This document shows positions 3,112-19,310 of a stretch of 64,000 bases of DNA, one piece after another; within the stretch, counting starts at the first letter, position 1; every line of letters begins with the position of its first letter. Made by a program: the position numbers and the translations under genes. Source of the DNA: a virus; the IMG/VR virus record IMGVR_UViG_3300044675_005482, positions 1 through 64,000 of that record; one strand, written 5' to 3'. The notes under the pieces were generated by a model. It had not been told where the DNA came from, searched no databases, and saw only the letters and a program-made list of their open reading frames with translations.

Positions 3112-3663
3112 CTACTTCTTTACATCAGTTGGGAATTGCAAAAGCCATTCCTTAGCCTTCGGGGTCAGACCCTTCCAGCTGGACCAATCTTCACCGCCAT
3201 TGGTCATATAGTACGTTATCTCTGCGTTTGTTACTGGGTCGAATAACTCTCTGTTACTCTTTAGGTCGAATTTCTCAAGTCTTTCAGGACCGAGATCTCC
3301 TAACATGTTAATCTGGAAAATTCCGTAGGAACTATCTCCAGTTTTCCTATTCCCGTTATATGCAAGCGGTCTTCCATTAGATTCACGCTTTGCTATTGAC
3401 CAAGCTTTCTTAAGGCCTAGTCCTTCGAATCCTACAGTCTCAAGCAATAGTTTTAGCTCTTCGTCTGTAAGCATCTCAGATGGCTTGTAAATCTCTTTAC
3501 TAAAACTATCTAAGACTTCTTGCTTTAATTGGGCTTCAGTTTTCACTAAAGGTTTTACTTCTAAGGCTTGGACTGGCTGTACAGGAAACATAAATAATGT
3601 TATCATTACTATTGTAACCACGTTATGAGCCAAGTCGCTAACCTGTTGTTTTATTTTCTCCAT
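3112..3663 (-). CDS. Exported lysozyme-like muralytic enzyme
   Basis: A 183-residue lysozyme/lytic-transglycosylase-fold protein that should cleave the glycan strand of peptidoglycan. The fold signature is AKRESNGRP (91-99, catalytic Glu94) followed by GDSSYGIFQINM (109-120), with the DWSSW motif (159-163) near the end. Residues 12-33 form a hydrophobic segment ending PVQPVQA, a Sec signal peptide or signal-anchor, so the enzyme is probably exported and could lyse cells without depending entirely on a holin. I chose the ATG at 3663 because taGAGGAGGa lies about eight bases upstream; ATGs further out sit in the promoter. It is the first gene of the leftward operon. A virion-associated role remains possible. 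Confidence 0.75.
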   Translation of the reverse strand: MEKIKQQVSDLAHNVVTIVMITLFMFPVQPVQALEVKPLVKTEAQLKQEVLDSFSKEIYKPSEMLTDEELKLLLETVGFEGLGLKKAWSIAKRESNGRPLAYNGNRKTGDSSYGIFQINMLGDLGPERLEKFDLKSNRELFDPVTNAEITYYMTNGGEDWSSWKGLTPKAKEWLLQFPTDVKK

Positions 3664-3696
3664 TGGCATTTCCTCCTCTAGAGATAACGAACTACA

Positions 3697-4818: not shown

Positions 4819-6753
4819 ATGTCAAAGACTATTGCTAACCCATATGAAAATTTTATTGCGCTATCTCGATATGCGAGATGGATTCCAGAAGAGAATCGTC
4901 GTGAGACATGGGGAGAAACAGTAGACAGATACTTTTCTTTTATGTTGGATCATTTAAAAGAAAATCACAATTACATTCCAGATGAGAAGCTTGTAGCGGA
5001 ATTAAAAGACGGTGTATTCCAAAGAAACGTCATGCCATCCATGCGCTCTGTAATGACTGCAGGAGCTGCATTAGAAAGAGACAACGTGGCTGGATACAAC
5101 TGCTCATTTGTCCCTGTAGATTCACCACGCTCATTTGATGAAACAATGTATATCTTGATGTGCGGCACTGGAGTTGGATTCTCTGTTGAATACAAGTATG
5201 TTAATAAGCTTCCTTCCGTCCCAGACTCATTTGATAAGACAGATACAGTTATTGTTGTTGAAGATTCAAAGCAAGGTTGGGCTAAGGCATACCGTGAACT
5301 ACTTGCATTGCTTTGGACAGGTCACATTCCAGCAATTGATGTTTCTAAGGTTAGACCTGCTGGTGCACGTCTTAAGACAATGGGCGGACGCTCATCTGGC
5401 CCACAGCCACTTGTAAATCTTTTCGATTTTACTATCGCAAAGTTTAAAAATGCAGCTGGTCGTCAACTTAAGCCTATTGAAGCACATGACATTATGTGTA
5501 AGATTGGTGAAGTTGTTGTTGTAGGTGGAGTACGTCGCTCAGCAATGATTTCTCTGTCTAACATTAATGATATTGAAATGGCAGCAGCAAAGTCTGGTAA
5601 CTGGTGGGAGAATAATACTCAACGTGCACTTTCAAATAACTCTGTTGCTTATTCACGCAAGCCAGAGATGGAACAATTTATAGCAGAATGGAAAAACCTT
5701 TATGATTCAAAGTCAGGAGAACGAGGTATATACAATGTGGCCGCAGCTCAAGCCCAAGCAGCCAAGTATGGAAGAAGAGATCCAGATATTCACTATGGAA
5801 CTAACCCGTGCTCAGAGATTATCCTACGTCCTTACCAGTTTTGTAATCTTTCAGAAGTCGTATTACGTGAAAAAGATACAAACGAAGATGTCGCAAATAA
5901 AGTACGCCTTGCAACAATCCTTGGGACTTGGCAATCAACCCTAACAGACTTTAAGTATCTACGTAAAATTTGGAAAGACAACACAGAAGAAGAAAGACTA
6001 CTTGGAGTTTCATTAACAGGACAATTTGGACACAAGTTTTTTTCTGGAAAGCAAGGTCTGGATAAGCTAGAGGACACTCTATCTAGACTTCGTGAATATG
6101 CTCGTGAAATAAATACAGAAGAGGCTGGGAAAATTGGGATTCCTGAGTCTGCAGCTATTACATGTGTAAAGCCTTCTGGAACAGTATCTCAATTGGTCGG
6201 GGTATCTTCAGGAATGCATCCATGGCATTCACCATATTACATTAGAACAGTTCGTGGCTCAAAGGGTGATCCAATTTCTACTTTCTTAAAGGAAGTTGGA
6301 ATTCCAGTTGAAGATGACGTAATGAAGCCAAATGACACTTACGTATTTTCATTTCCAGTAAAAGCTCCAGAAGGTGCAATTGTTAGAAATGACTTAACGG
6401 CACTTGATCACCTAAACACTTGGCTTGTTTATCAACGTGCATGGTGTGAGCACAAGCCTTCAATTACAGTATCTGTAAAGGAAGAAGAATGGATGGAAGT
6501 TGGAGCTTGGGTATATAAGCATTTTGACGAAGTGTCTGGAATTTCATTCCTGCCTCATTCAGATCACACATACAAGCAAGCGCCATACCAAGAAGTTGAT
6601 AAGGCAGAGTACGATGCACTTGTTGCAAAGATGCCAAAAGATATTAGATGGGAAGATTTATCTTTCTATGAGACAGAAGATGGCACTTCTACCAACGCCA
6701 CCCTCGCTTGTACTTCAGACGGAAATTGCGAGATTGTAGATATATCAGCTTAA
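4819..6753 (+). CDS. nrdJ: Adenosylcobalamin-dependent (class II) ribonucleotide reductase
   Basis: Reduces ribonucleotides to deoxyribonucleotides for phage DNA synthesis with a thiyl radical generated from adenosylcobalamin. At 644 residues it resembles the monomeric triphosphate reductase type (Lactobacillus leichmannii enzyme, about 740). Visible residues: Cys95 (YNCSF) and Cys342 (FCNLSE) as the redox pair; NPCSEI with Asn329, thiyl Cys331 and Glu333; and a C-terminal CysX5Cys pair (631, 637) that would re-reduce the active site. Cys331 and Cys342 are 11 apart, as in the Lactobacillus enzyme. No partner subunit is needed or seen. The host must supply or import B12. Codons lean to CGT and AAG, unlike the neighbouring glycosyltransferase gene, which suggests strong expression. 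Confidence 0.93.
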   Translation: MSKTIANPYENFIALSRYARWIPEENRRETWGETVDRYFSFMLDHLKENHNYIPDEKLVAELKDGVFQRNVMPSMRSVMTAGAALERDNVAGYNCSFVPVDSPRSFDETMYILMCGTGVGFSVEYKYVNKLPSVPDSFDKTDTVIVVEDSKQGWAKAYRELLALLWTGHIPAIDVSKVRPAGARLKTMGGRSSGPQPLVNLFDFTIAKFKNAAGRQLKPIEAHDIMCKIGEVVVVGGVRRSAMISLSNINDIEMAAAKSGNWWENNTQRALSNNSVAYSRKPEMEQFIAEWKNLYDSKSGERGIYNVAAAQAQAAKYGRRDPDIHYGTNPCSEIILRPYQFCNLSEVVLREKDTNEDVANKVRLATILGTWQSTLTDFKYLRKIWKDNTEEERLLGVSLTGQFGHKFFSGKQGLDKLEDTLSRLREYAREINTEEAGKIGIPESAAITCVKPSGTVSQLVGVSSGMHPWHSPYYIRTVRGSKGDPISTFLKEVGIPVEDDVMKPNDTYVFSFPVKAPEGAIVRNDLTALDHLNTWLVYQRAWCEHKPSITVSVKEEEWMEVGAWVYKHFDEVSGISFLPHSDHTYKQAPYQEVDKAEYDALVAKMPKDIRWEDLSFYETEDGTSTNATLACTSDGNCEIVDISA

Positions 6754-6762
6754 TGGTAGAAT
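6734..6762 (+). promoter_or_regulatory. Promoter for the holin-like gene
   Basis: TTGTAG (6734-6739), 17-bp spacer, extended TGg and TAGAAT (6757-6762), overlapping the end of the reductase gene. A short hairpin (ttgggat/atcccaa, about 6771-6787) lies in the leader before the holin-like start. Confidence 0.6.
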
Positions 6763-6822
6763 ATATAGTATTGGGATAAGATCCCAAAATTCTAGGGCAC
6801 AATGTCCAAGAAGGAGAATAAG

Positions 6823-7050
6823 ATGAAAAAAGATCTTAACAAGGATGGAAAGGTTACAATGACAGAGGAAATTTTAGCAGCGCTTGGAACATATGCGAGA
6901 GCATTTCTTTCAGCAGCTATTGCTCTTTACATGACTGGCAATACAAATCCAAGAGATTTGCTGATGGGCGGAATCGCAGCCGTAGCTCCAGTAATTCTTA
7001 AGGCTCTTAGCCCAAGTAACAAAGAATTTGGCTTTAAGTCAGACAAGTAA
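6823..7050 (+). CDS. Holin-like membrane protein with an EF-hand loop
   Basis: A 75-residue protein with a hydrophilic N-terminus and two hydrophobic stretches (about residues 22-37 and 44-60) joined by a short GNTNPRD turn, then a charged C-terminus: the layout of small phage holins. I start it at the ATG at 6823 because aaggag lies seven bases before it; an ATG at 6802 would cover that site. Residues 4-15 (DLNKDGKVTMTE) fit the canonical 12-residue EF-hand calcium loop, with Asp1, Asn3, Asp5, Gly6 and Glu12. It has its own promoter and terminator and faces the lysozyme-like gene across two genes. Holin function is inferred from size and topology only. Confidence 0.55.
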   Translation: MKKDLNKDGKVTMTEEILAALGTYARAFLSAAIALYMTGNTNPRDLLMGGIAAVAPVILKALSPSNKEFGFKSDK

Positions 7051-7069
7051 TTAATCTAGATTAGGAACG

Positions 7070-7099
7070 CTCCTGTGCTAAAATTAGTACAGGAGTTTT
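7070..7099 (+). terminator. Terminator after the holin-like gene
   Basis: ctcctgt (7070-7076) pairs with acaggag (7089-7095), and the inner bases extend the stem (ctaa/ttag with one G-T pair), leaving a very small loop. Four Ts and a T-rich stretch follow. Confidence 0.75.
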
Positions 7100-17459: not shown

Positions 17460-19310
17460 ATGGGTAAAAAAGTTGGAATTCAAGCATCAGCCGCTGGAGA
17501 TTTTGAAGCGCCATTAGCGCCTCTTAATCCCGTAGCAACAGATGTTGGAACTAACAGACTTTTTAATAATGGAGCTGCTACAGTATCTTTTTCTATTGAC
17601 CCATTAAGTACAGTACCTACTGCCTTTGTAGTAACATCTAGCCCAGGAAACTTTACTGGAGAAGGATCAGCATCACCAATTACGGTTTCTGGATTACAAA
17701 GTAATGTAAATTACACATTTAAAGTAACTGCAAGCAATGCCAATGGAAACTCAGTAGAATCAGTTGCATCTAATCAAATATTGGTAACAACTGTTCCAGG
17801 TGTTCCAAGAACACCAAGCGCATCTTCTTCAACAGCAGATCAGGACACAGTGACATGGACTGCACCAGCAAATGATGGCGGAAAACCAATTGCAAGTTAT
17901 ACAGTTAGCTCAAGTGATACTTCTGCTCAATTACCAAAATCTATATTTAAGCAGATGTCTGGCGGTTCAGGACAAACAACTATTAACGTTGACGACAATG
18001 TTGGATTAGTAGTAGGCAATAAGGTTACTGGAATAGGAATTGGTACAAATGCAGCAATTCAAGCTATCAATGGAACAACAATAACATTAACTGTTGCAAA
18101 TTCTGGAAATGTTCCATTACAAGATGGTAAGTTTACAGATCATGCTGATACTCAAACAGGACCTATTTATTTAAATGCCACATCTCCATTAGTAATTTCA
18201 GAATTAGGTGGAACATCTCAGTCATATAACATTGTTGCTATTAATGCTAATGGAACTTCCGTTCCAGCAATTACATCACAAGTAACTACATTCTTTTCCC
18301 CACCACGCTTCTTTGGGCCACCAGCATTCTTTACGCCACCACAATTCTTTACGCCACCACAATTCTTTAGTCCTCCAAGCTTCTTTTCACCACCAAGCTT
18401 CTTTTCACCACCAGGATTCTTCTCTCCACCACGCTTCTTTTCACCACCAGGATTCTTCTCTCCACCACGCTTCTTCGGTCCTCCATTCTTCTTTGGGCCC
18501 CCAGTATTCTTTGGACCTCCAGTATTCTTTTCCCCACCTAGATTTTTCTCCCCACCAGGTTTCTTTTCACCACCAGTTTTCTTTGGTCCTCCACGATTCT
18601 TCGGCCCTCCAGGATTCTTCGGCCCTCCAGCATTCTTTACACCTCCACGCTTCTTCGGCCCCCCAGGATTCTTTGGCCCACCAGGGTTCTTCTCACCACC
18701 AAGATTCTTCTCACCACCTAGATTCTTCGGCCCACCAGGGTTCTTCTCACCACCAAGATTCTTCTCACCACCTAGATTTTGCATTCAAGAGGACACACCA
18801 GTTCTTACAAAAGACGGGTACAAAAAGGCAAAGGATATTTCTATTGGAGATACTCTATCAACACTTACTTTTGATGAAATAACACATGGAGCAGATAACT
18901 GTGCCTATGGGGTAGTTACAGTAGAGTGTTCAGAAATAGTAAACTCATGGTCTGTTGATGAATTAAAAAATTATAAGACGCTAGACTCCAAGGTTACTAA
19001 TATTTTAACTGAAACTCATTACAAAACTGTTGTTATTAATGACGATCAGACAAAAAGATTCTCTTTTAAAGAAGATGTTTTAATTCACAGAGACAATAAA
19101 TATGTTATTGTAACGGTTGAAAACCTTTCTGTAGGAGATTCGCTAGTTATTTATTCAGAAGGCTCTATTAGTTTAGTTCCAATAACTAGTTTAACATCTA
19201 TAAAAGAAAAAACAAATACAATTCTTTTCTATAGAGAGCCATACGGCATGATTGTTGCTGGAGGTATGCTTGCATACAATGGATGTCCAGTCCATATGTT
19301 GACTAACTAG
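17460..19310 (+). CDS. Fn3 / FFxPP-repeat / Hint autoprocessing protein
   Basis: A 616-residue three-part protein. Residues about 15-275 are fibronectin-III-like, the second domain broken by a glycine-rich insertion. Residues 278-439 are 27 uninterrupted FFxPPx hexapeptides (x mostly Ser, Gly or Thr). Residues 441-616 form a Hint (intein-like) domain: block A begins at Cys441 with CIQEDTPVLTKDG and KAKDISIGD; block B is TETH (517-520); the final block is MIVAGGMLAYNG with Asn607. The penultimate His of true inteins is Tyr606 and only nine residues follow Asn607, so N-terminal cleavage or transfer at Phe440/Cys441 seems likelier than splicing. Next to it is an operon of five prolyl-hydroxylase-like genes, making the 54 repeat prolines an obvious candidate substrate. 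That link is inference. Confidence 0.8.
   Translation: MGKKVGIQASAAGDFEAPLAPLNPVATDVGTNRLFNNGAATVSFSIDPLSTVPTAFVVTSSPGNFTGEGSASPITVSGLQSNVNYTFKVTASNANGNSVESVASNQILVTTVPGVPRTPSASSSTADQDTVTWTAPANDGGKPIASYTVSSSDTSAQLPKSIFKQMSGGSGQTTINVDDNVGLVVGNKVTGIGIGTNAAIQAINGTTITLTVANSGNVPLQDGKFTDHADTQTGPIYLNATSPLVISELGGTSQSYNIVAINANGTSVPAITSQVTTFFSPPRFFGPPAFFTPPQFFTPPQFFSPPSFFSPPSFFSPPGFFSPPRFFSPPGFFSPPRFFGPPFFFGPPVFFGPPVFFSPPRFFSPPGFFSPPVFFGPPRFFGPPGFFGPPAFFTPPRFFGPPGFFGPPGFFSPPRFFSPPRFFGPPGFFSPPRFFSPPRFCIQEDTPVLTKDGYKKAKDISIGDTLSTLTFDEITHGADNCAYGVVTVECSEIVNSWSVDELKNYKTLDSKVTNILTETHYKTVVINDDQTKRFSFKEDVLIHRDNKYVIVTVENLSVGDSLVIYSEGSISLVPITSLTSIKEKTNTILFYREPYGMIVAGGMLAYNGCPVHMLTN
18291..18776 (+). repeat. 27 x 18-bp coding tandem repeat (FFxPPx)
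   Basis: An exact multiple of 18 bp (486 bp) encodes 27 consecutive FFxPPx hexapeptides. Position 3 is Ser 14 times, Gly 10 times and Thr 3 times; position 6 varies (Arg, Gly, Val, Ala, Gln, Ser, Phe). Synonymous changes among copies show long maintenance of the peptide, while some neighbouring copies are nearly identical in DNA, which implies continuing expansion or contraction. Confidence 0.95.

Follow-up and report, generated by a model that had tools for sequence, protein, structure and literature searches.

The window analysed here, a stretch of 64,000 nucleotides, comprises bases 1–64000 of the IMG/VR virus record IMGVR_UViG_3300044675_005482, whose full length is 113,997 bases. On its plus strand, an ORF at 6823–7050, with its ATG at 6823 and a stop codon ending at 7050, translates into a 75 aa protein (MKKDLNKDGKVTMTEEILAALGTYARAFLSAAIALYMTGNTNPRDLLMGGIAAVAPVILKALSPSNKEFGFKSDK), predicted from the translation and an AlphaFold2 model to be a two-helix membrane protein with an N-terminal EF-hand-like loop. 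A ribonucleotide reductase gene (4819–6753, plus strand; phrog_367, 8e-189) is its immediate upstream neighbour, and a candidate lysozyme-like endolysin of the SLT_3 type with an N-terminal signal-peptide-like segment (Pfam SLT_3, 1.1e-11) is encoded on the minus strand at 3112–3669. The record carries a WhiB gene, which indicates an actinobacterial host, and its source appears to be a lake (freshwater) phage. An in-frame ATG is also found at 6802, but given that none of the upstream stretches of the other loci listed has a Met at this place, 6823 is the likely start. A dual-start antiholin arrangement was rejected on the same grounds.

An extended −10-like promoter element (TGGTAGAAT; 6754–6762, plus strand) was detected by pattern search and recurs in the leaders of related loci, the leaders compared being those listed for 70 of 124 distinct loci; as the site at 6754 was not picked up by a scan for consensus promoters, this promoter is offered as a reading and not as a result. 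Two tandem RNA hairpins (6771–6812, plus strand; fold z −3.6) are predicted just upstream of the ribosome-binding site AAGGAG, read from the sequence at 6811–6816 on the same strand. In hairpin 2, pairing at each of the four consensus pairs is preserved by two-sided changes across 29 leaders. Compensatory changes observed in the leader of loop-bearing loci (6754–6822 in the window) include TTGGG/CCCAA to TTCGG/CCGAA and GGGC/GCCC to GAGC/GCTC. Directly after the gene lies a strong intrinsic terminator (7069–7096, plus strand) with a 12-pair stem and a T run, and a terminator-like hairpin is present in every loop-bearing locus that extends far enough (156 of 156), as against 8 of 114 loop-less loci. 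The only Rfam match, to the PyrG_leader family, is located on the terminator; it was below threshold and was discarded.

The ORF, its coordinates and its residues agree with the preliminary description of this locus, as do the two membrane segments beside the loop, which the model places at residues 13–37 (helix 1; 6859–6933, plus strand) and 43–62 (helix 2; 6949–7008, plus strand). Helix 1 is continuous with the exiting helix of the loop and contains an invariant Arg26, while helix 2 contains an invariant Pro56 (alignments A1 and A2). Hydropathy agrees with a small protein (75 aa) with two TM helices. The model was built from 26 alignment rows and has a mean pLDDT of 73; the loop itself was modelled as coil, with a mean pLDDT of 51 over residues 1–10 and no confident EF loop. 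Among the 107 loop-bearing proteins, the mean net charge is +1.3 on the N-terminal side, −0.3 in the turn and +2.1 on the C-terminal side, a bias that favours an N-in/C-in topology. Helix 1 is 38% Gly/Ala and 29% polar. We obtained no usable family match for the 75 aa protein family in Pfam, PHROG or NCBIfam, and the holin models of these three databases did not match it. Matches to PTS IIC proteins in NCBIfam and the PDB were set aside, as only a membrane-helix stretch is in common, and no significant PDB fold match was found for the AlphaFold2 model.

The 12-residue EF-hand-like loop (DLNKDGKVTMTE) occupies residues 4–15 (6832–6867, plus strand). It reads D-L-N-K-D-G-K-V-T-M-T-E, in which D1, N3, D5, G6, V8, T9 and E12 fit the EF-hand arrangement, with oxygen ligands at positions 1, 3, 5 and 12 and a glycine at position 6. 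The preliminary description had stated that the loop fits the canonical EF-hand exactly. This holds for the ligand residues, but not for position 13, the Pfam score or the incoming helix. The PROSITE pattern PS00018, which we take to require a hydrophobic residue at position 13, has 0 matches in the window, since this position is E in the window protein; the 137 sequences tabulated all have Q, E or K there. Likewise, the Pfam EF-hand_5 score is 12 bits, short of the gathering cut-off of 25.9, and no incoming E-helix is present in the model, where only three residues precede the loop and the first helix begins at residue 13. For these three reasons we describe the loop as EF-hand-like and not as a formal EF-hand member. 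Weak matches to the Pfam EF-hand and Dockerin_1 profiles were detected in the family. Prokaryotic EF-hand-like loops include DxDxDG calcium loops, among them the dockerin repeats. The phage loop shares with them the ligand spacing D1-N3-D5-G6-(V/I)8-T9-E12, but differs in being unpaired, in being joined to a membrane helix, in its non-hydrophobic position 13 and in lacking an incoming helix.

Considering the shortness of the motif and its Pfam score under the cut-off, the loop could be regarded as a chance run of residues. However, the strict pattern D-x-N-x-D-G-x-V-T-x-x-E occurs once in the six frames of the window, at residues 4–15, compared with a mean of 0.0 when the 217 open fragments of at least 60 aa were shuffled 200 times, and it arises in only 1 per 100,000 shuffles of the 75 aa protein itself. 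The codons argue in the same direction. Across 138 distinct loop-bearing gene sequences, pN/pS is 0.003 at positions 1, 3, 5, 6 and 12, whereas the remaining seven loop positions give 0.24, helix 1 gives 0.25 and helix 2 gives 0.20. Positions 1, 6 and 12 are invariant, and the sole changes at positions 3 and 5 occur in one sequence, in which N3 has become D and D5 has become N, so that both residues are still ligands. Loop-bearing rows were sorted by a pattern that fixes parts of the key positions, but this sorting hides almost nothing, as only one (L136) of 139 long-enough rows failed it. The codons at the five key positions vary freely (pS 0.70), and near-frozen ligand residues combined with free synonymous change point to selection on the ligands and not to a DNA-level constraint. 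Chance is thus refuted by shuffles and codon data and retains only a negligible probability. Judged by its codons, the loop is a selected ligand site, and it is very probably a metal site.

Scanning IMG/VR with the window protein yielded 321 relatives, and all of the best 80 of these 321 carry the loop. The pool was assembled from six viral scans and one genome scan, each contributing at most its best 80 (loci L001–L465), and includes the window's own copy, the record of Actinomycetia phage DSL-LC01 and one MAG contig; the best-80 rule biases it towards near relatives. It comprises 273 loci distinct in the gene plus 300 bases, encoding 171 distinct proteins, 107 of them with the loop. The MAG contig is the single cellular homologue from a scan of 84,980 species genomes. 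In the phage collection we detected one homologue, that of DSL-LC01, which is 49% identical and lacks the loop. With this homologue as the query, many loop-less proteins of the MEQAKALAASWARSFLAAALALYMAGVTDPK type were recovered, making up 54 of the 161 loci pooled by then. The idea that the loop characterises the family as a whole was rejected, as relatives outside one clade do not have it.

In a core-only tree of 43 proteins, based on only 57 columns and with many forks open, all loop-bearing proteins fall in one group (support 100/99) together with four loop-less rows, one (L136) beside L102 and L109 and three (L238–L240) near L212 and L218. Because these loop-less rows nest inside the group, an exclusive clade of loop-bearing proteins was rejected by the AU test (p 0.003; 57 columns). 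All four lie directly after the same reductase, each with a cleanly shortened or altered start. Three changes suffice, so the simplest history is readable as one gain and two losses. Conservation among homologues, which the preliminary description had proposed as a check on the loop, is thus found throughout one clade but not in the wider family, and within that clade the loop was apparently lost twice. As the core was retained in two sublineages after loss of the loop, the loop is not essential; read from this phylogeny, it is a late add-on to the family core, useful but dispensable.

For the genomic neighbourhood, 260 loci remained after merging by gene plus 100 bases, 148 of them loop-bearing and 112 loop-less, and muralytic neighbours were found as relatives of five query enzymes. 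Such a relative is present in 90 of the 112 loop-less and 140 of the 148 loop-bearing loci. Among the loop-less loci, a CHAP enzyme occurs in 31, with the ORF end lying 1–38 bases past the mechanically called gene start, that is, in overlap; VanY-PG_binding occurs in 19, at 53–712 bp downstream, SLT_3 in 41, at 689–1053 bp downstream, the SLT_3 type of the window in 4 and the DSL-LC01 type in 1, some loci having two enzymes. The loop-bearing loci are uniform: the reductase is upstream in 146 of 148, the SLT_3 enzyme lies on the other strand in 140 of 148 at a median of 2.4 kb, and the same tail-type genes follow downstream in 139 of 148, the next gene being tail-fibre-assembly-like. A signal-peptide-like start was seen in all eight N-termini listed for the SLT_3 proteins of the loop clade (140 sequences in all), and in none of the N-termini listed for the CHAP enzymes. 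A Foldseek search against BFVD gave A0A6J5T8U2 as the best match (E 3e-3, 44% identity) and a second match at E 0.043, both named "Holin" in the database annotation.

The association of three unrelated endolysin types with one small two-TM family supports a holin-type role, and the holin-like character proposed in the preliminary description is borne out by the two-helix model, the loop-less relatives beside CHAP, VanY and SLT_3 endolysins and the Foldseek matches. Judging from these neighbours, we consider a role in lysis probable. The closest known systems are the class II holins and pinholins, such as S68 of phage 21, gp4 of mycobacteriophage Ms6 and gp11 of D29, as described in PMC9671378. 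The window protein resembles these in having two membrane helices joined by a short turn within fewer than 91 aa, in its N-in/C-in charge bias, in the Gly/Ala and polar content of helix 1 and in the candidate exported endolysin of the same genome. The gene adjoins the endolysin, as in class II holins, in the loop-less relatives, whereas in the loop clade some 2.4 kb separate it from the enzyme, which is encoded on the opposite strand. The window protein further differs from these systems in its N-terminal Ca2+-type loop and in lacking a conserved dual start and a sequence match to holin models.

A second family with a comparable layout was identified by scanning IMG/VR for DxDxDG motifs no more than about 10 codons from a start codon that has a ribosome site; the scan returned at least 120 stretches. 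Among the matches listed, 54 were in frame, 36 of these encoded proteins of no more than 150 aa and 6 of those had a predicted TM segment; five of these six belong to one family. The three members scanned match phrog_27150, a family of unknown function. The family was examined in nine annotated phages: the Roseobacter phages CRP-1, CRP-9, CRP-345, CRP-810 and CRP-207, Limnohabitans phage DC31, Pelagibacter phage HTVC008M, Methylophilales phage Melnitz-3 and Sinorhizobium phage phiM12. The loop is N-terminal or near-N-terminal in all nine. These proteins share with the 75 aa family a single EF-hand-like loop ahead of two hydrophobic segments, but they contain a charged stretch between the loop and the first TM segment and are annotated as hypothetical. 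Only 16 loop columns align in an hhalign comparison of the two families, and PHROGs scans of the window protein and 22 members of alignment A1 gave no match to phrog_27150; homology outside the loop was rejected, the TM regions being unrelated. The claim that such loops are uncommon in small phage membrane proteins is thus only partly right. The recurrence of the loop in unrelated proteins argues for a loop function.

For five of the nine phrog_27150 genes, an annotated endolysin, peptidase, spanin or holin is encoded no more than two genes away. The gene directly precedes a putative endolysin in CRP-9 and CRP-1, a spanin and an endolysin in CRP-345 and a GTA_holin_3TM protein and a GH108 enzyme in CRP-810, and lies two genes before an L-Ala-D-Glu peptidase in DC31. 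In CRP-207 it adjoins a gene named lysozyme; this "putative lysozyme" (L591:3292–3873) reads as a TM plus coiled-coil protein, and its annotation may be wrong. In the other three phages (phiM12, Melnitz-3 and HTVC008M), the adjoining gene is large or tape-measure-like and lies among T4-like baseplate genes, which argues against a role in lysis only.

Taken as a whole, the best explanation, to which we give an even chance, would be a holin-type protein with an added Ca2+ loop that makes lysis switch-like. The protein would be a small two-helix component of the lysis module, acting as a holin or as a co-holin beside a second one, and in one freshwater actinobacteriophage lineage it would have acquired a single EF-hand-type Ca2+ loop leading into, and capping, helix 1. 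By the positive-inside rule, we infer that both ends of the protein face the cytosol, so that in a healthy cell the loop would face low Ca2+ and be empty. Leakage of the membrane, or an outward movement of helix 1, would bring the loop into contact with outside Ca2+, which it would bind, and the filled loop might rigidify or pair the helices, turning a small first lesion into sharp, committed lysis. The exported endolysin of the same lineage would need only the loss of membrane potential, as with pinholins. The calcium tuning of lysis is the more tentative part of this scheme, a proposal that we hold at somewhat less than an even chance.

Other readings of the same data have to be weighed against a calcium-switched holin. 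The loop could be a permanently filled structural Ca2+ site or a helix cap that stabilizes the start of helix 1 and senses nothing. In the model it runs directly into helix 1, and T9-x-x-E12 is a spacing also found in helix capping; a mere cap, however, would not need D1, N3 and D5 to be frozen, and the loop-less relatives have the same helix without the loop, so we regard this reading as rather unlikely. The tail-fibre-assembly-like gene next downstream in 139 of the 148 loop-bearing loci, along with the position of the second family's gene by a tape-measure-like or large gene in T4-like phages, would suit a virion- or entry-associated membrane protein with no part in lysis, the proximity of lysozymes then reflecting tail or baseplate modules. 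Against this, three unrelated endolysin types adjoin loop-less members, the structural matches are named Holin, and the gene's own promoter-like element and terminator separate it from the tail genes, which makes the virion-associated reading improbable.

The same genome also holds a second holin candidate. At record positions 87317–87496, an ORF encodes a 59 aa TM protein and is followed by a 96 aa two-TM protein (87499–87789). The latter has a match to phrog_26427, a family labelled nuclease (3.7e-27), and a weak one to the holin family phrog_443 (E 0.037). This protein has two hydrophobic segments like the 75 aa protein, but lacks the N-terminal loop and ends instead in a C-terminal half-loop, LDDGKLTIDEIN, which resembles the second half of an EF loop (pair at L597:3317–3789, record 87317–87789). 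An hhalign comparison of the two families covers 48 columns (E 9e-4, probability 23%). The 96 aa protein has 258 relatives in IMG/VR; among the best 80 of these, the 59 aa neighbour is present in 79 loci and a CHAP enzyme follows directly in 22. ORFs related to an Ala/Glu-rich protein of 837 aa, which has a signal-like start and is encoded just before the pair (L597:810–3323, record 84810–87323), occur in 60 of the same 80 loci. Given that this second two-TM candidate adjoins CHAP in 22 of the 80 loci, the main holin may be a protein other than the 75 aa one. The phage could carry a pair of holin-like proteins, with the 75 aa one perhaps secondary or a co-holin. It could then be a regulator (antiholin or co-holin) tuned by its loop, with the 59/96 aa pair as the main hole-former. 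Beyond the CHAP neighbours, this would be in line with the conservation of the 96 aa protein in the same contigs, eight of which hold both proteins (the loop being present in all eight), with the EF two-TM gene of Roseobacter phage CRP-810 lying directly before a GTA_holin_3TM gene, and with the two holin-like proteins reported for mycobacteriophages Girr and NormanBulbieJr in PMC13056207. On the other hand, it is the family member itself that overlaps or lies next to the endolysin in the loop-less relatives, and in the window's own record no CHAP-like protein was recognised directly downstream of the 96 aa gene when the ORF list was inspected by eye. On balance, we regard this regulatory reading as rather unlikely.

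It is a long-standing question what triggers a holin at its set time, and to our knowledge calcium is not among the known triggers. If a calcium-switched holin is the right reading, then phages infecting unrelated hosts (Actinobacteria, Alpha- and Betaproteobacteria) might independently have made calcium-latched holins or co-holins by means of an N-terminal loop, with Ca2+ entering through the first lesions to make lysis cooperative and irreversible and with outside calcium setting its timing and sharpness; this wider idea is speculative, and we consider it unlikely. Two unrelated families share the design of a calcium-type loop before a two-helix hairpin, and the phages concerned infect very abundant freshwater and marine bacteria. 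The natural loop-less orthologues at the same locus offer ready-made pairs for asking whether calcium sets lysis timing. No description of EF-hand holins was found in the literature searches, as judged by titles and the beginnings of abstracts, with a term-level check of the full texts of PMC10202952, PMC6802176, PMC9671378, PMC5795418, PMC8528129 and PMC11288001.

Several other small proteins were noted. A 54 aa single-TM protein ending in DRDKDGIVQEGTKWER is encoded elsewhere in the record (L597:15247–15408; record 99247–99411), and motifs similar to its end (DGDGDGLVQDGT) occur in L522 and L534. Tiny proteins of the form MDGLDFDGDGKIDEYF...CEHVWGD...CLKCGKIK, which combine a DxDxDG loop with a Cys/His ribbon-like part, are encoded in L559, L560, L584, L520 and L574. 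In L471 and L571, a basic protein of 63 aa (MLKNRKKADLDKDGKISSYEMKRGM) has an N-terminal EF-like loop and no TM segment. Within the window, positions 17460–19310 encode a 616 aa protein that contains a long series of PPxFF repeats.
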